Virus record (IMG/VR): IMGVR_UViG_3300023184_003063
Span: 1-44,281 of that record
Strand: one strand, 5' to 3'
Source of the DNA: a virus
DNA: 44,281 bases
Positions 10,768 to 31,032 of this stretch are shown piece by piece. Position numbers and translations under genes: made by a program. How positions within the stretch are numbered: position 1 is the first letter of the stretch; each line of letters opens with the position of its first letter. The notes under the pieces were generated by a model that had not been told where the DNA came from, ran no database searches, and saw only the letters and a program-made list of their open reading frames with translations.

Positions 10768-11799
10768 TTATAAACCAGCAAACCAAACCCCTGGCAAGTT
10801 TTTAACTGAATCAATAGCGGCTCTTGCTTGACTAAATTCTAAATGATCTTGTTGAAATACATCGTGTGTTTTAAAATCAAATTTTGACCAGGTACCCCAG
10901 TTTGTAACTCTTGAATATTCAACTACATCTACATCAAATGTTTGACATAGATCATAAAATTCTTTTATTTCTTTATAATTTTGTTGTTGGACAATCATCC
11001 TTGTATGTAATTTTATACCAAGCAAATGTTTTTTGTGTTGTAAAAATTTCATAGCAGTTAGAATATCGCCCCAGCGACCGCCTCGTCTAATACGTTCATA
11101 TGTTTGGGGTTGAGAAGCGTCAATGGATACTGTGACTTTCTCTACACACGATTCAATATTTGAAATTCTATTCCAACGGTCCGGGCATAACAATCCGTTG
11201 GTCCCGATGTGTAATTTAAAATTAGGAAATTTTGCCTTGTCAATTGAATTAACAAACGACATTAATAAATCGCTGGCAAATAACTCTCCAGTGCCACTAA
11301 CTTCTAGTATTATTCTTTGATCATTAGGTGCCGAAAACAAGTTTGCAGAAATTAATTTTCCTATTTGGGTTTGATGCTCTATTTCTTCGTCTGATGTTTT
11401 TATAATACCAGTGCGACAACTAGGGCAACTTAGATTACATGTACGATCGCCTTGAAAACTAATATGATGCGGCATTTCAAATTGTCTAGCATCGTTCATC
11501 AGCTTTTTTACATTAGGCGGTACAGTATCCAATTCATTTAATAGGTTGCTAGTAATTACTCCGCATAATTTTTCATTACAATATTGAAATGTCCCATCAA
11601 TAATACTTTGTCTAATCTCTTGTGCTTCAGTAGATGCCAGAATAGAGATTAGCGTGTTTTCTTTAAGATTGCCTACTACCGTAGGAAGCCATCCCGAGCA
11701 ACCGCACATACGAACACTACCATCCAGCGCGACCTCAATCATCACAAATGGAGACAAGCACACTTTGCCTTGAAACGGTTTAATAGGAAATTTTATCAT
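10768..11799 (-). CDS. Radical SAM enzyme with an N-terminal SPASM-like cysteine region
   Basis: 343 residues. The radical SAM cluster motif is CNLSCPSC (C121, C125, C128), followed by strand and helix blocks such as EVSGTGELF (GxGE-type SAM contact), HIGTNGLL and VSIDASQPQTYERIRRGGRW. Before the core, residues 14-79 hold extra cysteines (C14, C32, C34, C74, C79) around LSPFVMIEVALDGSVRMCGC, a SPASM-like auxiliary Fe-S region that usually follows the core. The reaction is unknown; relatives modify peptides or cofactors. The gene stands alone, with gaps of 50 and 87 nt on either side, and its DNA is visibly more AT-rich than its neighbours, suggesting recent gain. Confidence 0.75.
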   Translation of the reverse strand: MIKFPIKPFQGKVCLSPFVMIEVALDGSVRMCGCSGWLPTVVGNLKENTLISILASTEAQEIRQSIIDGTFQYCNEKLCGVITSNLLNELDTVPPNVKKLMNDARQFEMPHHISFQGDRTCNLSCPSCRTGIIKTSDEEIEHQTQIGKLISANLFSAPNDQRIILEVSGTGELFASDLLMSFVNSIDKAKFPNFKLHIGTNGLLCPDRWNRISNIESCVEKVTVSIDASQPQTYERIRRGGRWGDILTAMKFLQHKKHLLGIKLHTRMIVQQQNYKEIKEFYDLCQTFDVDVVEYSRVTNWGTWSKFDFKTHDVFQQDHLEFSQARAAIDSVKNLPGVWFAGL

Positions 11800-12147: not shown

Positions 12148-12153
12148 AGAGAA

Positions 12154-12193
12154 ATCTCCTAAAACACTATTATAACACAGATGTTTAGGAGAT
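12154..12193 (-). promoter_or_regulatory. Inverted repeat enclosing the -10 box and the ribosome binding site of dsbA
   Basis: The arms 12182-12193 and 12154-12166 are complementary over 12 bp with one bulged A; the 15-nt loop contains TATAAT. On mRNA coming from upstream the arms would pair and hide UAGGAG. RNA started at the local promoter lacks the 5' arm and stays open. The layout could alternatively be a repressor operator. Confidence 0.7.
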
Positions 12194-12198
12194 GTCAA
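12169..12198 (-). promoter_or_regulatory. Consensus sigma70 promoter for the dsbA-like gene
   Basis: A perfect -35 box TTGACA (12193-12198) and a perfect -10 box TATAAT (12169-12174) with an 18-nt spacer, on the minus strand. It is the best host-type promoter in the window. Transcription should start near 12162, inside the 3' arm of an inverted repeat and just before the AGGAG site. Confidence 0.85.
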
Positions 12199-12279
12199 CG
12201 TGTATATGCTCGTTTTGGGCCGCCGGGTAGCGAATCCTTTGGCCCAGGCAGAAGCCGCCCACTCGGTCCTAAGGCTGAG
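12199..12279. other. GC-rich non-coding segment with inverted repeats
   Basis: Between the stop of the 848-residue gene and the dsbA promoter. GCCCACT pairs with AGTGGGC across the stop codon, CCTTAGG is a palindrome, and GGGCC pairs with GGCCC 19 nt apart. It could be a processing site, a weak terminator without a U-run, or a small structured RNA. It does not fold as a convincing tRNA. Confidence 0.35.
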
Positions 12280-14826
12280 TTAGTGGGCCACTTGCTGGCT
12301 GTGTTCTCTACGACGTTGAGCACCGACTTGTGTCACATGCTCAAGTATCTGATTGCGCAAATCAAATGCTGATTCATTCACAGCACCATATCGGGCAAAT
12401 GTTTGATCAACAAACTGTTTGATACGTTGCACATCTTCTTTGGTCTCAACCATTTGTAACAGTTCTGCTACAGGCTGAGTCAATGCTTCTTTTATCCCGC
12501 TGAGTTGTTTCTGGATATTTGGAGGTAAATCTTTGGCAGCGATCATTGGTTTGCCGCCTAATGTTGCCGCTCCAGTTTTTTTATTATAGGTTCCAACAGT
12601 GTCTGCTGGTGCTGTTGTTGCCGCCGGTGCAGTTGGCTTAGGCAAACTAACACCAGTTTTGATATTAGGAGCATAGTTCACACTCTTGTATCCGCCGCCT
12701 TGTTGAGCAAAATTTGGCGTGGCTGGTTTGCCTGCTGTTGCGGCCCGTGCGGCTTGACGACGAGCCGCTTCTCTACGGCCAACATAGCCAGGTCCTTTCG
12801 GATCTTCTCCGGGAAACTTGCCACCGGTCGCGGCTGTTGCACCAGGCGCTGATACAGCAGAGGGTGCTGTTGCACCAGGTACTGTGTCTGTGGCAGCAGT
12901 TGGCGTCGGTGCAGGATCTGTGAAACCAAATTTAGCACGTATTTCATCACCTGTAAATGCTTTACCAGTGGCAGGGTTGATGCTGCCACTGTTGGATGTT
13001 CTTTGCGCACCACCCACCGCCGGCGCAGTAGGTTGTGCTGTGGGTTGTGCTGTTGCCTGTGAGGCCGGTGCTGTGTAAGGAATACCCATCTTGCCAAACA
13101 CACTGGTCACTACAGTCTGTGGCACACCTTGGCCAACCAACCATGCGGCCAATTGATCTGAATCACTGGGCTTGCCGGCCTGATGCCAGTTCATCTTGAG
13201 TTTTTCTTTGGTGACGTTGGTGGTAAATTGATGTCCAAAGTTGCTTAATGCGCCGCCAACTTTTTTAACACCTCGGTCCAACCAGTTGAGACCACGACCG
13301 ATCAAGCCGGGCTTGGACGGTACCCCTGCGCCACCTGACATGGCTGGAGCATATTGATCTGGCAAGTCTGGACGACCCGGTTGTGTTGCTTCAAGCAGAG
13401 CCAGGCGATATCGATCAATGTTTTCAAACACTGTGTAAGTTCCAATAGTGGTTAAATTAACACTCTTGCTCTTACGACCAACGCTTTCACTCAAGGCCCA
13501 ATTCAGCACTGTGGCTTTCTGATCAATCAATCGGTCAGCAGGCAAAATTCTTGCACGATACTTGATGGATTCTTTCACTGCATTTCTGGCAGCCATACCC
13601 TGTGTGATTGCGCTGTTGGGAACCTGTCCTTGAGCAATGTCAGCCATGGTGTTGGCATTGGTACCAACTCCACCTGCATACACATCTGCACCGGGTGTGC
13701 CAGGCGGCAATGTGATCTGTTGTCCAGGGAAGATAACGTCAGGATTTAGACCTTGCCCACCTGTGGCACCACTTGCGGCGGCCAATTGTGGATTCAATCC
13801 TTTTAGTTCAGCCACCGAGGTATTGAAACGATCGGCAATTACACTGAGTTTATCACCTGGTTGTACTGTGTATGTTGCAAGGTCTGGAGTCGGTGCAACC
13901 AATGGGCTTACGGTATCGGATCCATCAGGCATGCTCACATACTCACCAGTGTGATCGCCCATGTTGTTAACATTGGTGAATGCGTTAGTATCAGCAGGTC
14001 CTGTTTGTGTGGCACCACCGTATATGGCTTGTCCAGCCCAGGCTGTTGCGGCTGCACCGCCGGCTTTGAGTGCAATATCTGAAAACTTCTCGCCCTTGAT
14101 TGCACTATCTAAACCATAGACCAAAGCAGCCACCGCTGGCAGGCCTGCGCCGCCTGTGGCCAAGCCAGTAATACCAACCAAGGCTGCTTTGGCCAGGCCA
14201 GCGGTCTTGGGATACTGTTTTGCAAGGTTGCGATACTTGTTGATCGCAGTCATTACTGCACCTTTTTGGCCACCTGTTAGATTGGCCAGGGCGTCAGTGG
14301 CTTGGTCATATGCTACATCAACTGCGGCCACAGGTACAGAACTTTGTATACCGCTCCAGACACCTTTTAATGCACCAGCAACATCTTTGGCAAAGTCTAC
14401 TGTGACATCTTTGCCACGGCCTACAAAGGTACGGTTGGCACCTGTGGCCTTGTCGGTCATGCCTGCTTCGGCATCAGAAAAGATTTGTAAGATTTCTGGT
14501 TCAGTTAGTTTTTGTTCACTAATGTATTGACCCACACGTTTGAATCTGCGATAGATGGGATCTTCCATGAGCCGGGCTTCGTTTACCGGTTTCTTCTTGG
14601 CGTGGTATTCATCTTGCGCTTTTTTAACACGTGCCTGGTCGGCACGGATTCTACGTTGGTCTGGATCCATGAAGTCAGGATCATCAGGATGACGTCTTGG
14701 AGTATTGCTACCCTGTGGTCTTGGCCGGCGTGGTGCGTCACCTGGGCGGTCATAGTCAATACCCGGCAAGTCATATGGACCGTTTTCTTTGAGAGGCTTG
14801 GGATTAAATAATTGGTCTACTATCAT
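12280..14826 (-). CDS. Large LysM-domain phage protein, 848 residues, possible virion or internal protein
   Basis: Residues 1-80 are basic and proline-rich. Residues 88-110 (MEDPIYRRFKRVGQYI) share the DPIYR motif with the start of the neighbouring 270-residue protein. Residues about 205-275 are Ala/Gly-rich and hydrophobic, possibly membrane-active. A LysM domain (YTVQPGDKLSVIADRF to FPGQQITLP) lies at 318-374 and should bind peptidoglycan. The next 350 residues are low-complexity Pro/Ala/Thr. The C-terminus (ETKEDVQRIKQFVDQTF, ending in a basic HSQQVAH) looks like a conserved module. The TAATATG junction couples it to the gene upstream. LysM plus a membrane-active segment suggests a role at infection or in the virion wall passage; that is inference. 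Confidence 0.65.
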   Translation of the reverse strand: MIVDQLFNPKPLKENGPYDLPGIDYDRPGDAPRRPRPQGSNTPRRHPDDPDFMDPDQRRIRADQARVKKAQDEYHAKKKPVNEARLMEDPIYRRFKRVGQYISEQKLTEPEILQIFSDAEAGMTDKATGANRTFVGRGKDVTVDFAKDVAGALKGVWSGIQSSVPVAAVDVAYDQATDALANLTGGQKGAVMTAINKYRNLAKQYPKTAGLAKAALVGITGLATGGAGLPAVAALVYGLDSAIKGEKFSDIALKAGGAAATAWAGQAIYGGATQTGPADTNAFTNVNNMGDHTGEYVSMPDGSDTVSPLVAPTPDLATYTVQPGDKLSVIADRFNTSVAELKGLNPQLAAASGATGGQGLNPDVIFPGQQITLPPGTPGADVYAGGVGTNANTMADIAQGQVPNSAITQGMAARNAVKESIKYRARILPADRLIDQKATVLNWALSESVGRKSKSVNLTTIGTYTVFENIDRYRLALLEATQPGRPDLPDQYAPAMSGGAGVPSKPGLIGRGLNWLDRGVKKVGGALSNFGHQFTTNVTKEKLKMNWHQAGKPSDSDQLAAWLVGQGVPQTVVTSVFGKMGIPYTAPASQATAQPTAQPTAPAVGGAQRTSNSGSINPATGKAFTGDEIRAKFGFTDPAPTPTAATDTVPGATAPSAVSAPGATAATGGKFPGEDPKGPGYVGRREAARRQAARAATAGKPATPNFAQQGGGYKSVNYAPNIKTGVSLPKPTAPAATTAPADTVGTYNKKTGAATLGGKPMIAAKDLPPNIQKQLSGIKEALTQPVAELLQMVETKEDVQRIKQFVDQTFARYGAVNESAFDLRNQILEHVTQVGAQRRREHSQQVAH

Positions 14827-14827
14827 A

Positions 14828-15640
14828 TTATCGTTCTTCTATGTAATCTTGAGACAAGTCCTGTTTCTGTCTGCGCTTTTGAAACAGTCGCACTGCCATG
14901 TCAGCATGGTCAATGCGGGGAAAACGTGTGGGTAAACTGCGCTCGCCATGACGAACTTCGTAACCTGACTCATCGTCGCCCCAGCACTCTAAACTGGTAC
15001 CGTCTTCTAGGGTGTATGTTCTTACAGGTGCTTCACTCATGGGTGCCGCAGGTTCGGCAACATCGGCTGCTATGTGATCTTCAACACCGTGTGCTACTTC
15101 TGTATCAGCAGGATCACCAATGGGTTGTACATCTTGATCCCATGTGGCATTTTCATCAACTTCGTCGCTGTCATCATCACTATCCAAGTCGTCACTAGCA
15201 TCACTGCCAAATTCTTCTTCACTGTCGGCAGCATCTTCTTCATCTTGCTCATCAACTTCGCCATCATCGCCAATTTCAAGATCGTGCTTGGCTTTTTTAA
15301 CTAAATGACTGTCAAGATGATTTTGTTTTTCTAACTTCTCAAGATAGTCAGCAAACTGATGCTTGACTCGGCTGATCATGTCTTCTTCAACTTCTTGCAT
15401 GGCTTCTTCAAGACTTGGCTTGCGAGGTTCTACTGAGTCTCCTACCATGTATCCATCTGCAGGATGTTTCTGATAGGGCTTCTTGGTCAATGTGGTACTG
15501 ATATCTGTTGGCTTGAACAAGGCCGGCAACTGTGGCACACCTTTTTGTTGTTGATTCAAGCCGTGCCGGACTGAGACTGGGGTAGTCTTACCCTCAATCA
15601 AGGCCAGGCGCTCGATTATACGATAGATTGGATCCGTCAT
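14828..15640 (-). CDS. Acidic phage protein of unknown function, 270 residues
   Basis: No enzymatic family recognised. Begins MTDPIYRIIERLALIEGK, a conserved-looking start shared in part with residue 88 onward of the next gene's product, then HGLNQQQKGVPQLPALFKP. Residues about 125-215 are extremely Asp/Glu-rich, like scaffolding or nucleic-acid mimics. The C-terminus returns to a folded look: YTLEDGTSLECWGDDESGYEVRHG and DMAVRLFQKRRQKQDLSQDYIEE. Between Dps and the LysM protein, coupled to both by overlaps, so it is probably part of the same virion-protein operon. Confidence 0.6.
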   Translation of the reverse strand: MTDPIYRIIERLALIEGKTTPVSVRHGLNQQQKGVPQLPALFKPTDISTTLTKKPYQKHPADGYMVGDSVEPRKPSLEEAMQEVEEDMISRVKHQFADYLEKLEKQNHLDSHLVKKAKHDLEIGDDGEVDEQDEEDAADSEEEFGSDASDDLDSDDDSDEVDENATWDQDVQPIGDPADTEVAHGVEDHIAADVAEPAAPMSEAPVRTYTLEDGTSLECWGDDESGYEVRHGERSLPTRFPRIDHADMAVRLFQKRRQKQDLSQDYIEER

Positions 15641-16080
15641 GCTCGCTCATCTTTCAAGAAACTTCTCAGCATCCACGCATGCTTCTGCTGAGCATCAATG
15701 CGTTCTGCTATAAAATTTGCAATGCCTTGCTGGTTTTCTTGTTCAGCCGTGGCAAATGTTTTGTTGAGTAGATCAAGCAGTTGGTTGTTGTTGGCCAACA
15801 GTTCTTCAATCATGAGACGGGCACGTGGGATCTTGGTTTGTCCTTTAATAATGCTTAGTTCACTAAAACGTTCAAAACTACCAGGGGCATAGTCGCCCAG
15901 CGCACGTATGTATTCTGCTGTTTTGTCTATACTGTTGTTGTAGACTTCTTCGTATAAGTTGCCAAAAAACTCGTGCAGTTGTGCAAAGTCAGGACCTTCC
16001 ACATTCCAATGGAACAGTTGTGCCTTGATACTGAAAGCGTATTCAGTTGCTAATAGAATTTTTAAACTGTCCGCGAGCAT
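15637..16080 (-). CDS. dps: Dps-family ferritin-like protein
   Basis: 147 residues, a little shorter than bacterial Dps (about 160) mainly at the N-terminus. The four-helix pattern and the Dps signature KAQLFHWNVEG (H24) are clear, followed by H36 twelve residues later and D52/E56 on the next helix, the pattern of the inter-subunit ferroxidase site. D and E are one residue further along than in E. coli Dps. Dps oxidises and stores iron and protects DNA in a 12-subunit shell. The N-terminal DNA-binding tail is absent. The gene overlaps the end of the 72-residue gene by 38 nt. Whether it is made in the cell or packed in the virion is open. Confidence 0.82.
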   Translation of the reverse strand: MLADSLKILLATEYAFSIKAQLFHWNVEGPDFAQLHEFFGNLYEEVYNNSIDKTAEYIRALGDYAPGSFERFSELSIIKGQTKIPRARLMIEELLANNNQLLDLLNKTFATAEQENQQGIANFIAERIDAQQKHAWMLRSFLKDERA

Positions 16081-24659: not shown

Positions 24660-24692
24660 GTTTACTCCATAAAAGTTGTGTATTATTTACAG

Positions 24693-24701
24693 AGTATAGC
24701 A
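24693..24701 (-). promoter_or_regulatory. Extended -10 promoter (TGC-TATACT) for the GT-A gene
   Basis: Minus-strand TGCTATACT in the 63-nt gap before the glycosyltransferase; TGn before a good -10 box compensates for the absence of a clear -35 box. A GGAG site follows before the ATG. Confidence 0.4.
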
Positions 24702-24722
24702 CACCCGGAGATTTTTTCCTAG

Positions 24723-27221: not shown

Positions 27222-27872
27222 TTATTTAGCACGGCCTATAATGGGCAGGGTCTTTCTAACTACGCCAGGAACGGCCATGTTGATCAGGAAGTCAGCATTG
27301 GGCTCGTTGTGGTCCACAAAATGGTTGCTGGCCACCCACATTCTTCGTCCAGACACCAGTTTAGCAAATCCCGGGCCCAGTCTAAATATCTCACGACGAG
27401 TATCAAAGTAACGACGCAAGGTTGCTAATTCATCATTTGTGAGCCAGCGTTCTCGAAAGTATGTTCTAAACGCATGTCGAGGATGTTTTAGTGTAACTGC
27501 GTCTGGGGTTAGTGTTACCTGTGCTTGATTTATGTACAGTACCCGGCCTGTGGGTATGATCGCAATATCTTCAAAGTCTTCGGGGTTGTTGGTGTACAAC
27601 CATATGCCATTGCCACACACAACTTTCTTGAACGGATGTGTGCGAGTCAACAAATAGTCACAGGCATCGTGTAAGATCTGTTGCTCAGTTGAAGTAATTG
27701 TTTTTGCGCCACCACGACGACCGATCCATTCATTTCTGTATCTTATTGTTTGATCGATCTTTTCATGCTTGAGTTCACGTAAGAAACTGGCCTCAGGCAA
27801 GTGGAACAGTATCACATACTGCCAAGCATGAAAGTACAAGGTACTACGAGGTACTACAACGGGGTCAGACAT
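27222..27872 (-). CDS. Phage hypothetical protein, 216 residues
   Basis: Function not recognised. N-terminus YFHAWQYVILFHLPEASFLRELKHEKIDQ, then RNEWIGRRGG, and later strand-rich blocks (KKVVCGNGIWLYTNN, RVLYINQAQVTLTP). Basic overall, with many aromatic residues. Starts inside the end of the ClpA gene (8-nt overlap, ATGTCTGA), so it is likely co-made with the chaperone. No metal or nucleotide site is visible. Confidence 0.6.
   Translation of the reverse strand: MSDPVVVPRSTLYFHAWQYVILFHLPEASFLRELKHEKIDQTIRYRNEWIGRRGGAKTITSTEQQILHDACDYLLTRTHPFKKVVCGNGIWLYTNNPEDFEDIAIIPTGRVLYINQAQVTLTPDAVTLKHPRHAFRTYFRERWLTNDELATLRRYFDTRREIFRLGPGFAKLVSGRRMWVASNHFVDHNEPNADFLINMAVPGVVRKTLPIIGRAK
27223..27229 (-). 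promoter_or_regulatory. CTAAATA box 8 nt before the 54-residue gene
   Basis: Minus-strand CTAAATA overlapping the stop codon of the 216-residue gene; its last base is 8 nt before the ATG of the 54-residue gene. T4 late-like. No Shine-Dalgarno is seen. Confidence 0.4.
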
Positions 27873-30132
27873 CAGGGAACCTAATAATTCCGTCGTCGGC
27901 TACTACTGGAACTGCGTTAAGCACCACATCAAACACAACCTTGTCATCCACAAAGTCTGCGGCAATATCACAGTCTGTGAGTCGATCAAACAAGATCCGC
28001 TTGCTCAATGGTACACGAATAAGTTCGTCGATCTTGCGGGCAAGTGGTCGCGCACCCATCTTCGAATCATAGCCTTTGTCAGCAAGCATGTCAACGACTG
28101 ATTCGGATAAATTGAGACGTATACCTTTTGCAAGCAGACTTGTCTTGAGTTCGTCCACAAACTTGACCACAACTTTCTTGACCGCCAAAGTATCCAATTT
28201 GACAAATTTACAGATTTGATCAATCCTGTTGCGCAGTTCAGGTTTGAAGAACTCTTTGAGGGCTTTATCGTCCTCGCCTGTTTTCTCAAAGTCTCCAAAG
28301 CCAATGTTATTTGCTTCACTGTCTCTTGCTCCTAGGTTTGATGTCATGATAATGATAGTATTCTTGCAGTTTACTTTCTTACCATTTGAACTGGTTAGCA
28401 CACCTTCGTCTAGCATTTGTAGCAAGATGTTGGTGACATCAGGGTGTGCTTTTTCAATCTCATCAAACAACAAGATTGAGAATGGGTGTTTGCTTATGTC
28501 TGAAATCAGTTTACCACCGCCCACATTGCCATCCTCAAAGCCCACATAGCCTGGAGGTGCACCAATCAAGCCACTTACACTATGACGTTCTTGGAACTCA
28601 CTCATGTCATACTTCAACAGTTTCATGTCCAAGTTGTCTGCTAACAGTCTAGCAAGTTCTGTTTTACCTGTGCCTGTTGGTCCTAGAAACAAGAAACTGG
28701 CCATGGGCTTCTTTTCATTAGCGATGCCAGCAAAGTTGATGTACACACGTTCTAGTACACTATCGACAGCACTATCCTGTCCGTACAATTTTTGTTTTAT
28801 GTTGCTTTCCAGTTCCATGATCTTGGCCGAGCGTTCGTTTTGTAGTTTATCTGCAGGCACGCCTGTTACTCGGGCCAGTTGTTCTTCGATCATGCCTCGA
28901 GTAATGGTCACATTGCCCAGGTCCTTCACACGCTCTCTAGCACAGGCCGCGTCAATCAAGTCAATTGATTTGTCGGGGTTTTTCTTGTCATGAATGTAAC
29001 GATTGGCCAGTTCCACTGCGGCTGTCATGGCCTCAGTGTCGATCAACACATTATGAAACGCTTCTAGTCGTGGTGAGAGTCCGATTAGAATCTGTTCAGT
29101 GGTCGTCGCATCCGGTTCGTCTATGGACAACCTGTAGAAACGGCGCATTAACGCACGATCCTTTTCGAAACTCTCGTAATACTCTTCCCAGGTGGTTGAC
29201 GCAATCACTTTCAAATTGCCTTTGGTAATAGCAGGCTTTAACATGTTGGCAAAGTCCAGACTGGATCCTGCACCTGCGCCGGCACCCTTCATGGTGTGTG
29301 CCTCGTCAATGAACAAGATACAGTTCTTTTTGGCATCCAAGGCTGAAATAACTGCCTTGAACTTTTCTTCAAACTCGCCGCGATATTTGGATCCTGCCAA
29401 GAGTGAGCCAATTTCCAGGCTCCATACTTCATGTCCCTTTAAGAATTCAGGCACACGTCCGGCTTGTAGTTCTTGTGCCAAGCCCTCAATGATGGCAGTC
29501 TTGCCCACACCAGGATCGCCTACCATCAGCACATTGGCCTTGAAGCGTCGTGCTAGTACTGTGATCATTTCCTGTAGTTCTGTAGCACGACCAATTAAGG
29601 GTTCTAACTGATTCTTTTCAGCACGTCGACTTAGATTCTCACAGTACTCTGTCAAGATTTCGTCTGCTTGCGAATGACTCATGCCTGACTCTGTGGCACC
29701 TGTTTTATAACTCCGGGTCCAGAAGTCCACAAATTCAGTTTTCTTCACCCCGTACTTGAGCAAGAAATAGTGTGCGTGACTATTGGTCTCGCTCATGATC
29801 GAAAGATACATGTCAATGGTGGCAATGGCTCGCCTGCCAGTAAACATCACCTGCACATTGGCACGATTGAAAATGCGTTCCAGGGCCACTGTTCTGCGTG
29901 GCTGTGTGTCGGGAGTGTCTGAAATTAGATGCATTTGGCTGACCAACCAGTGCTCAATTTCCCCATCCATTTGATCCACTTCCACACCAAATGTGTCTAG
30001 ACATTTGCGAAATGGTGCATGCCGCACAAGACTCAACAACAGGTGTTCAGTTGTGACATATTCATGCCCGTAGTCCTGAGCAATTTTAACTGAGCCTTCA
30101 ATGATTTTTTTGATTTCGGGATTTTCTTGCAT
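27865..30132 (-). CDS. clpA: ClpA-type AAA+ unfoldase
   Basis: 755 residues, as in bacterial ClpA (758). It has an N-domain with two helical repeats (residues 1-140), a first AAA+ module with Walker A GDPGVGKT at 205-212, Walker B LFIDEAH and pore loop KYRG at 249-252, and a second module with Walker A GPTGTGKT at 484-491, Walker B LLFDEIE and pore loop GYVG at 528-531. The ClpB middle coiled coil is missing. Residues 610-612 read IGF, in the position of the ClpP-binding loop of ClpA/ClpX. No ClpP is in the window, so it probably works with host ClpP or as a disaggregase. It follows dnaJ and has its own promoter. Confidence 0.88.
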   Translation of the reverse strand: MQENPEIKKIIEGSVKIAQDYGHEYVTTEHLLLSLVRHAPFRKCLDTFGVEVDQMDGEIEHWLVSQMHLISDTPDTQPRRTVALERIFNRANVQVMFTGRRAIATIDMYLSIMSETNSHAHYFLLKYGVKKTEFVDFWTRSYKTGATESGMSHSQADEILTEYCENLSRRAEKNQLEPLIGRATELQEMITVLARRFKANVLMVGDPGVGKTAIIEGLAQELQAGRVPEFLKGHEVWSLEIGSLLAGSKYRGEFEEKFKAVISALDAKKNCILFIDEAHTMKGAGAGAGSSLDFANMLKPAITKGNLKVIASTTWEEYYESFEKDRALMRRFYRLSIDEPDATTTEQILIGLSPRLEAFHNVLIDTEAMTAAVELANRYIHDKKNPDKSIDLIDAACARERVKDLGNVTITRGMIEEQLARVTGVPADKLQNERSAKIMELESNIKQKLYGQDSAVDSVLERVYINFAGIANEKKPMASFLFLGPTGTGKTELARLLADNLDMKLLKYDMSEFQERHSVSGLIGAPPGYVGFEDGNVGGGKLISDISKHPFSILLFDEIEKAHPDVTNILLQMLDEGVLTSSNGKKVNCKNTIIIMTSNLGARDSEANNIGFGDFEKTGEDDKALKEFFKPELRNRIDQICKFVKLDTLAVKKVVVKFVDELKTSLLAKGIRLNLSESVVDMLADKGYDSKMGARPLARKIDELIRVPLSKRILFDRLTDCDIAADFVDDKVVFDVVLNAVPVVADDGIIRFPDV

Positions 30133-30159
30133 AGTGATTGAGTTGAGTTCCTATGTGTT

Positions 30160-30188
30160 ATTATACTACTTACTGTATTATGTAGCAA
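30160..30188 (-). promoter_or_regulatory. Sigma70-like promoter for clpA
   Basis: Perfect -10 TATAAT (30160-30165) with a 17-nt spacer to TTGCTA (30183-30188, 4 of 6 matches to -35), in the 70-nt gap after dnaJ. The only AGGA is about 18 nt before the ATG, farther than usual. Confidence 0.6.
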
Positions 30189-30202
30189 TCATTCTGACAA
30201 TA

Positions 30203-30982
30203 TTATCTGTGCTGTTGAATGGCCTGAGCCAATTCTGGAGAGATTGAACTGGGCAATTGGGCATGCAATCGGATAAAAAGATCTCCGGTGTTGCCTTTTC
30301 TATCCCGCAGGCCGCGCCCACGCAGGCGTAGCACGGTGTTGTTGTCTGTGAGTGGGGGAATTGCAACAACCAATTGAGTGCCGTCCAGGTTGACCACAGT
30401 GGTGTCTCCGCCCAGGATCAAGTCCCAGACCGAAGCCTTGTAGTCCACGGTCAGGTTCAGGCCATCACGTCGAAACTGTGGATGCGGATGCACTCTGAAT
30501 TCAATCACCAGGTCTTGCCCCCCAGGAGCAAGGCCCTGATACTGTACCATGTCTCCGTCATTGATGCCCTGGGGCACATCTATTTCTATTGTGGCCTGCC
30601 CTTGTGGTGATCCCACTGCCACCTGCCGGTTGCCCCCGGTCGACACATCTTTCAATGTAATCCACAGGCTCATACGCATGTGATTGCGACGCGGATGTTG
30701 TCCTCCAAATCCTGGGTGACCACCAAACATCTGGCTAAAGATATCGCCCATGTTGAACTGGGTGCCACCAGGCATGCCTGCAAACTGTGGTTGTGGATTG
30801 TCGTACTGAGCACGTTTGGCCGCATCACCCAAGGTATCGTAGGCGGCTTGTATTTCTTGGAATTTTTTAGTATCGCCACCCTTGTCCGGATGATGCTGGC
30901 TGGCCAACTTGCGAAAAGCACGTTTGATTTCATCTGGGCTAGCGGTTCGGGCAACACCTAGTGCGGCATAGTGGTCGGTCAT
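30203..30982 (-). CDS. DnaJ/CbpA-like co-chaperone
   Basis: 259 residues. An N-terminal J domain (residues 4-60) with HPDK at 31-34 that would stimulate host DnaK, a Gly/Phe-rich linker at 70-95, and a C-terminal substrate-binding part (VPQGINDGDMVQYQGL, LTVDYKASVWDLILGG, RLRGRGL), as in CbpA. The zinc finger of DnaJ is absent. Phages of this type may need it for capsid folding or to steer host chaperones. The gene is preceded by its own promoter and a perfect inverted repeat covering the ribosome site. Confidence 0.85.
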   Translation of the reverse strand: MTDHYAALGVARTASPDEIKRAFRKLASQHHPDKGGDTKKFQEIQAAYDTLGDAAKRAQYDNPQPQFAGMPGGTQFNMGDIFSQMFGGHPGFGGQHPRRNHMRMSLWITLKDVSTGGNRQVAVGSPQGQATIEIDVPQGINDGDMVQYQGLAPGGQDLVIEFRVHPHPQFRRDGLNLTVDYKASVWDLILGGDTTVVNLDGTQLVVAIPPLTDNNTVLRLRGRGLRDRKGNTGDLFIRLHAQLPSSISPELAQAIQQHR

Positions 30983-30985
30983 GAA

Positions 30986-31018
30986 AAAGTCCTGTATGTT
31001 TTAATTATACAGGACTTT
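30986..31018 (-). promoter_or_regulatory. Perfect 12-bp inverted repeat around the dnaJ ribosome binding site
   Basis: Arms 30986-30997 and 31007-31018 are perfectly complementary around a 9-nt loop. On RNA from upstream the 3' arm hides AGGA (seven bases before ATG) and is followed by UUUUU, so it could also end transcription. RNA from the local promoter starts near 30997 and lacks the 5' arm. Confidence 0.8.
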
Positions 31019-31032
31019 CAGGGCAGTGTCTA
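31004..31032 (-). promoter_or_regulatory. Sigma70-like promoter for dnaJ, -10 inside the hairpin
   Basis: TATAAT (31004-31009), 17-nt spacer, TAGACA (31027-31032, 5 of 6 matches to -35) on the minus strand, between the 77-residue gene and dnaJ. The -10 box lies partly in the loop and partly in the 5' arm of the inverted repeat. Confidence 0.7.

Follow-up and report, generated by a model that had tools for sequence, protein, structure and literature searches.

A host-type promoter within a ribosome-site hairpin and an adjoining conserved structured RNA upstream of the dsbA-like gene of an uncultured giant phage

Introduction

Can a phage gene be expressed from its own promoter while staying silent on messages that run into it from upstream? 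In T4, long RNAs of genes e, soc, 49, and I-TevI are silenced by leader hairpins, and for gene e, late promoters located inside the leader structure yield active RNA (PMC3014915). The locus described here raises the same question with a promoter of the host type: upstream of a dsbA-like gene, a consensus promoter overlies an inverted repeat, a layout that a sequence-only reading had taken to separate read-through from local expression and to be a general device of this phage. Here, we analyzed the whole 44,281-nucleotide stretch of the IMG/VR virus record IMGVR_UViG_3300023184_003063 (hereafter the window), along with related viral sequences. With a probability of roughly 60%, we consider that the locus is best explained by two elements, namely a promoter–hairpin switch at dsbA and an adjoining conserved structured RNA (table 1).

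Table 1. Positions, in the window, of the structured RNA, the dsbA promoter and hairpin, and the similar starts.
Feature	Positions	Strand	Basis or remark
TAA stop codon ending the 848-aa LysM-domain gene upstream (12280-14826)	12282-12280	-	P1 pairing begins at its last base
Structured RNA, 77 nt here: P1/L1, P2/L2, P3/L3, conserved tail	12283-12207	-	covariance model R1
P1 (ACUC 12280-12277 / GAGU 12264-12261), L1 AGCCUUAGGACC	12280-12261	-	
P2 hairpin, loop GGCUUCU; loop pairs with the 3′ tail (pseudoknot)	12260-12246	-	stem flips, loop fixed, loop–tail co-changes
P3 hairpin, loop AUUCGCUAC (12235-12227)	12245-12217	-	
3′ tail AAAACGAGCA, partner of L2	12216-12207	-	
-35 TTGACA of the dsbA promoter	12198-12193	-	promoter scan
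TGT and -10 TATAAT (extended -10), in the hairpin loop	12177-12169; TATAAT 12174-12169	-	
Hairpin 5′ arm ATCTCCTAAACA, pairs with the ribosome-site arm	12193-12182	-	
Hairpin 3′ arm TGTTTTAGGAGAT, including Shine–Dalgarno AGGAG (12160-12156)	12166-12154	-	
dsbA-like gene, 86 aa	11887-12147; ATG 12147-12145	-	PHROG 639 / 12534, weak Pfam PF11126
dnaJ promoter TAGACA-17-TATAAT, with an inverted repeat overlapping it and the ribosome site fully paired	30974-31032	-	in silico
Hairpin before gene 24659: TATACT and TAAATAAT in the loop, GGAG paired	24660-24719	-	in silico

Promoter and Hairpin Upstream of the dsbA-Like Gene

The promoter is an exact TTGACA-18-TATAAT with the TG of an extended -10, upstream of the dsbA-like gene on the minus strand, which also carries all the genes near the site. 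It is the sole 12/12 match in a promoter scan of the contig, and TTGACA-N15-19-TATAAT occurs nowhere else in its 44 kb (0.04 expected; present in 4 of 100 shuffles). The two arms of the repeat form 12 pairs with one bulged base, and the output of the inverted-repeat tool places them at 12151-12163 and 12184-12196, with 92% complementarity. These two scans bear out the proposed superposition of promoter and 12-bp repeat, bulge included, and the coordinates agree with a -10 box within the loop and AGGAG within the 3′ arm; the segment between the -10 box and the ATG reads AGTGTTTTAGGAGATTTCTCT.

When folded as the transcribed strand, the dsbA leader reaches -22.1 kcal/mol (z -2.18), and 4 of 200 shuffles are equally stable. 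In the read-through RNA, the mean probability that AGGAG is unpaired is 0.00 in silico, as against a mean of 0.40 when the 5′ arm only is shuffled, with none of 200 shuffles as low, and in the same prediction the -35 sequence GUUGACAU is base-paired to AUGUCAGC, the region of the start codon. As the -35 lies at the 5′ edge of the hairpin and the -10 in its loop, a local RNA is predicted to lack the 5′ arm, and the probability that AGGAG is unpaired is computed at 0.25 or 0.59 for RNAs started at 12162 or 12168, respectively. The idea that this layout separates read-through from local expression is thereby supported in silico.

In the mechanism that we propose, a host sigma70-type promoter would operate from inside the DNA encoding the hairpin. 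RNA started locally, at about 12162, would come without the 5′ arm and leave the ribosome site open, whereas read-through RNA from upstream would hold both arms and hide AGGAG and AUG, so that dsbA would be translated from its own promoter only. The transcription start, the read-through, and the translational effect are what we infer at this locus, and, from modeled folds, we regard the switch in this form as reasonably probable. Its two main ingredients would be shared with the devices of T4 e, soc, 49, and I-TevI, in which the ribosome site is held in a helix on long transcripts and the upstream strand of that helix is encoded by DNA that also contains the promoter, such that local transcripts escape. 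However, the T4 devices use a TATAAATA late promoter, whereas the dsbA promoter is of the consensus sigma70 type with an extended -10; a scan of the dsbA site found no TAAATA late promoter, the internal promoter being TTGACA-18-TATAAT. The gene concerned also differs, being dsbA-like here, and the hairpin is found in one sublineage only, while recurrence in relatives had been predicted for gene e.

The dsbA-like product matches PHROG 12534 (E 7e-20) and PHROG 639, annotated as "transcriptional regulator" (E 3.3e-9), and scores 20 bits against the Pfam family Phage_DsbA (PF11126), below the cut-off of 25. By PHROG 639 and this weak PF11126 match, it appears as a small, 86-aa relative of T4 DsbA, a phage DNA-binding protein linked to late transcription, with the difference that the gene is not beside gene 33 here. 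Between dsbA and a family-B DNA polymerase sits a radical-SAM/SPASM gene (10768-11799, minus strand); the minus strand also encodes a ferritin-like protein at 15637-16080.

Conservation among dsbA Orthologues and Similar Starts in the Contig

From IMG/VR, we gathered at least 136 non-redundant leaders of dsbA orthologues, 121 of which were scored for sequestration of the ribosome site and 123 for complementarity between spacer and leader. Among the matches listed, a sigma70-type promoter of at least 10/12 is found in 68% of the 136 leaders (3.8% when shuffled), and the distance from -10 to ATG is mostly 17–25 nt. In the same listed matches, spacer–leader complementarity is strong in 25 of 123 leaders for 6 expected, many of these forming one group characterized by TCTCCTA, and sequestration is extreme in 17 of 121; outside the TCTCCTA group, the listed leaders show no excess of sequestration (7 of 111, for 7.2 expected). 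The layout sought in related contigs is thus present in one dsbA sublineage, with no excess elsewhere. Since the promoter is conserved but sequestration is confined to essentially one sublineage, the dsbA feature is the known T4-type device with another promoter class, in one branch: judging from these leaders, what is conserved across orthologues is the promoter, and the hairpin is a sublineage feature.

This restriction to one sequence group speaks for an incidental hairpin, that is, for a strong constitutive promoter whose spacer complements the ribosome site by chance in one lineage. We find this account unlikely, because within the TCTCCTA group the pairing survives both changed spacer length and changed -10 sequence, because sequestration in the window is complete and equaled by none of the 200 arm shuffles, and because the contig holds two further such starts. 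The ribosome site is fully sequestered at only 3 of the 17 starts with a recognizable Shine–Dalgarno, namely dsbA, dnaJ (30982), and gene 24659 (0/40, 0/40, and 1/40 shuffles as low, respectively), and at all three a -10-like element lies in or overlaps the hairpin. At gene 24659, the arms are GTGT/ACAC and CTCC/GGAG, with TATACT and TAAATAAT between them; at dnaJ, a run of five T comes after the hairpin, which could therefore also act as a terminator. Of the general device once proposed for this phage, the recurrence at dnaJ and gene 24659 stands, but the layout is neither general among dsbA orthologues nor new, being that of T4.

A distinct alternative is that the inverted repeat is a DNA operator, in which case a repressor from the phage or the host, DsbA itself perhaps, would bind the dyad over the -10 and the start, RNA pairing being a by-product. 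The dyad is indeed centered on the core promoter, other dyads flank the -10 in a few unrelated orthologues (L314, L315, L362), and T4 DsbA binds DNA near late promoters, albeit with low affinity (PMC2988020). In the TCTCCTA group, moreover, the arms are conserved more than they covary, as an operator would have it. An operator would nevertheless leave aside that the 5′ arm complements exactly the Shine–Dalgarno stretch, would be disfavored as a symmetric site by the one bulged base, and sits poorly with dnaJ and gene 24659, which share the layout with different sequences; we therefore judge it improbable. The switch, if correct, adds host-type promoters of giant phages to the range of the classic T4 device, and it predicts which messages are silent.

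Elsewhere in the contig, a T4-late-like TAAATA box lies a few nt before the ATG, with no Shine–Dalgarno, at starts 16553, 26221, 44093, and 23703 (-), an arrangement suggestive of late messages with no leader or almost none; the contig has more CTAAATA than expected (10 vs. 3.5). The dnaJ gene, for its part, adjoins a ClpB/ClpA-like AAA ATPase gene, the two forming a phage chaperone pair (27865-30982, minus strand).

A Structured RNA Upstream of the Promoter

Comparing the dsbA leaders exposed a far more conserved stretch upstream of the promoter, which corresponds to a structured RNA made of three hairpins and a conserved tail. Pattern scans of viral contigs brought together at least 221 distinct sequences of this family, 123 without near-duplicates, in which the invariance of L1 and L2 is partly by construction, since the retrieval patterns fixed parts of both. 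The covariance model R1 (77 positions), whose seed includes the window copy, recovers that copy with an E of 1.7e-23 and detects 98 copies across 100 loci. In the 96 distinct rows, paired cells make up 87% (60.5% when shuffled), two-sided changes number 369 (136 when shuffled), and the covariation score is 0.655, against 0.19 when shuffled (0 of 500) and at most 0.09 when slid, all these values being inflated by an alignment fitted to the proposed structure. Compensatory changes in P2 and P3 are also seen in A1, an unfitted alignment.

Across the family, L1 reads CCUUAGGACC and often carries an inserted hairpin, P1a; the P2 stem occurs as GGC/GCC, GCC/GGC, CCC/GGG, or CGC/GCG, with an L2 of the form GGCUNCU; the P3 loop is AUUCGCUAC or one of several alternatives; and the tail is AAGUGAGC in most relatives. 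The pseudoknot is visible in the joint changes of its two strands: tails ending in UAGC or UGGC accompany an A in the middle of L2, and where L2 changes from C to G, the tail changes from G to C. The L2/tail combinations found include GCUACU with AGUAGC or AGUGGC, GCUGCU with AGCAGC or a bulged AGUGAGC, and GGUGCU with a bulged AGUGACC. On the gene strand, G-U pairs outnumber A-C pairs (96 vs. 42), so that the RNA is probably gene-sense. That the upstream element is a real structured RNA is, in our view, close to certain.

Distribution and Genomic Context of the RNA

Among the matches listed, the RNA is present in more than 200 distinct uncultured giant-phage sequences. Rfam returned no match in the window at the gathering threshold, and four loci carrying or possibly carrying relatives gave none even with E allowed up to 0.5; ARAGORN found 0 tRNA or tmRNA genes in the window. 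In cultured phages, blastn gave no match for four RNA members, and the covariance model gave none in five cultured giant phages encoding relatives of DsbA; blastn did not find the RNA in plasmids either. In 84,980 bacterial and archaeal genomes searched by pattern, nothing was found beyond chance matches. Bacterial homes of the RNA were rejected on a first pattern with 0 matches and a second with 42, mostly antisense to cold-shock protein genes or otherwise due to chance, with low model scores, and in one case the complementary strand of a 23S gene itself. The 15-mer TTGACATCTCCTAAA, found in at least 119 stretches, was not used as evidence because a 15-mer is expected often by chance in that collection. 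Overall, the RNA is a new family, supported by covariation, that Rfam lacks and that many uncultured giant phages have in common.

Of the 11 large uncultured-phage contigs to which the model was applied, 10 have a single copy of the RNA; two matches occur in the remaining one, G013, the contig of locus L326 (76944-77016 and 266275-266364), which is the only such case among the large contigs searched. The flanking genes vary between phages. That the RNA immediately precedes the dsbA promoter, in the window as in many relatives, might evoke a riboswitch-like leader of dsbA; we hold this to be very improbable, given that a different gene follows the RNA in most loci and that, the RNA being upstream of the promoter, the local dsbA transcript would not contain it.

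Complementarity to 23S rRNA and Possible Roles of the RNA

Helices 69–71 of 23S rRNA belong to the intersubunit and recycling center of the ribosome, and the 1920-1937 region is nearly universal. With the E. coli 16S and 23S rRNAs and their numbering as targets, from which the phage host may differ, CCUUAGGACCG in L1 is an exact 11-nt antisense to 23S 1920-1930 and UUCGCUACC in the P3 loop is a 9-nt antisense to 1929-1937, the L1 and L3 matches thus abutting on the H69–H71 region. Other members have the P3 loop ACGCCAUUC, antisense to about 1968-1976 of 23S, and in several members P1a extends the antisense through H69 (14 nt in L237), its mean similarity to the H69 antisense being 12.3, against 8.7 when shuffled (0 of 200) and 7.1 for the reversed target. 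In the RNA matches listed, antisense 8-mers number 1866, where 44 control windows from E. coli give 705 ± 142 (at most 1039), and sense 8-mers 592; a scan of the helix track against rRNA is best at 23S 1920 (z 7.6).

The exposed loops are hence complementary to rRNA beyond chance, by 11 + 9 nt and by 8-mer excess, in a comparison made post hoc: 0.5% of random segments qualify under a broad null (any 77–100-nt phage segment with matches of 10 + 9 nt within 50 nt on the target), and by our own rough estimate the chance restricted to the conserved loop letters would be far below this value. The 23S idea does not account for the GUCGUGC type of P3 loop, for which no convincing rRNA target was found, nor for one member that lacks the loop. 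Two other relations to rRNA were considered. A 10-nt antisense of L2 to the 16S 530 loop was rejected as the main cause because L2 pairs and co-varies with the RNA's own tail, and sense-strand mimicry of rRNA is disfavored by the G-U versus A-C counts and by sense 8-mers at background.

On these complementarities, the RNA could plausibly bind the ribosome: formed as the 3′ terminus of messages coming from upstream, it would act by pairing with the large ribosomal subunit. Pairing with 23S rRNA as its mode of action is a proposal that we make tentatively, somewhat short of even odds. With similar reserve, the RNA may found a new giant-phage class, in which a pseudoknotted scaffold would present two loops to 23S H69–71 (1907-1937; in some lineages about 1968-1976) so as to block, remodel, or commandeer large subunits.

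The main rival to action on rRNA is a cis-acting element of the 3′ end or gene junction (end protection, processing, or termination/reinitiation), with no trans-acting ribosome binding. In most loci, the RNA begins no further than about 13 nt from the upstream stop codon, which in 15 of 85 cases is the UAG of CCUUAGG; in 87 of 93 loci, no more than 80 nt lead from the RNA to the next start codon, often past a promoter-like box, all of which is in line with a junction element. Unlike a generic terminator, however, the RNA has varying flanking genes and is essentially single-copy, and a cis role alone leaves unexplained why two loops are antisense to neighboring 23S segments; we see the cis reading as possible, though on the doubtful side.

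With regard to pairing with 23S rRNA, the P1/P7 c4 RNA is likewise a structured phage RNA that shows complementary sequences in loops, but it targets the phage ant mRNA (PMC12197685), whereas the match here is to host 23S rRNA, in a fold that is unrelated as far as known. The same rRNA region is targeted by antisense PNA against helix 69, a synthetic oligomer and not a natural RNA, which can inhibit E. coli growth (Kulik 2017, as cited in PMC7038079). If the action on rRNA is true, the RNA would be of a new kind, a natural RNA aimed at H69–H71 of the ribosome, and, if the 23S complementarity is functional, it would offer a direct, RNA-level handle on giant-phage takeover of host translation, which has so far been argued from phage-encoded translation proteins (PMC7162821).

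As a last observation, the inserted P1a of L205, L243, L287, L383, and their relatives contains CCUAAGGCGUC or AAUGGCGUC, which are able to pair with the RNA's own L1 or P3 loop, making alternative folds or self-inhibition possible in these members.
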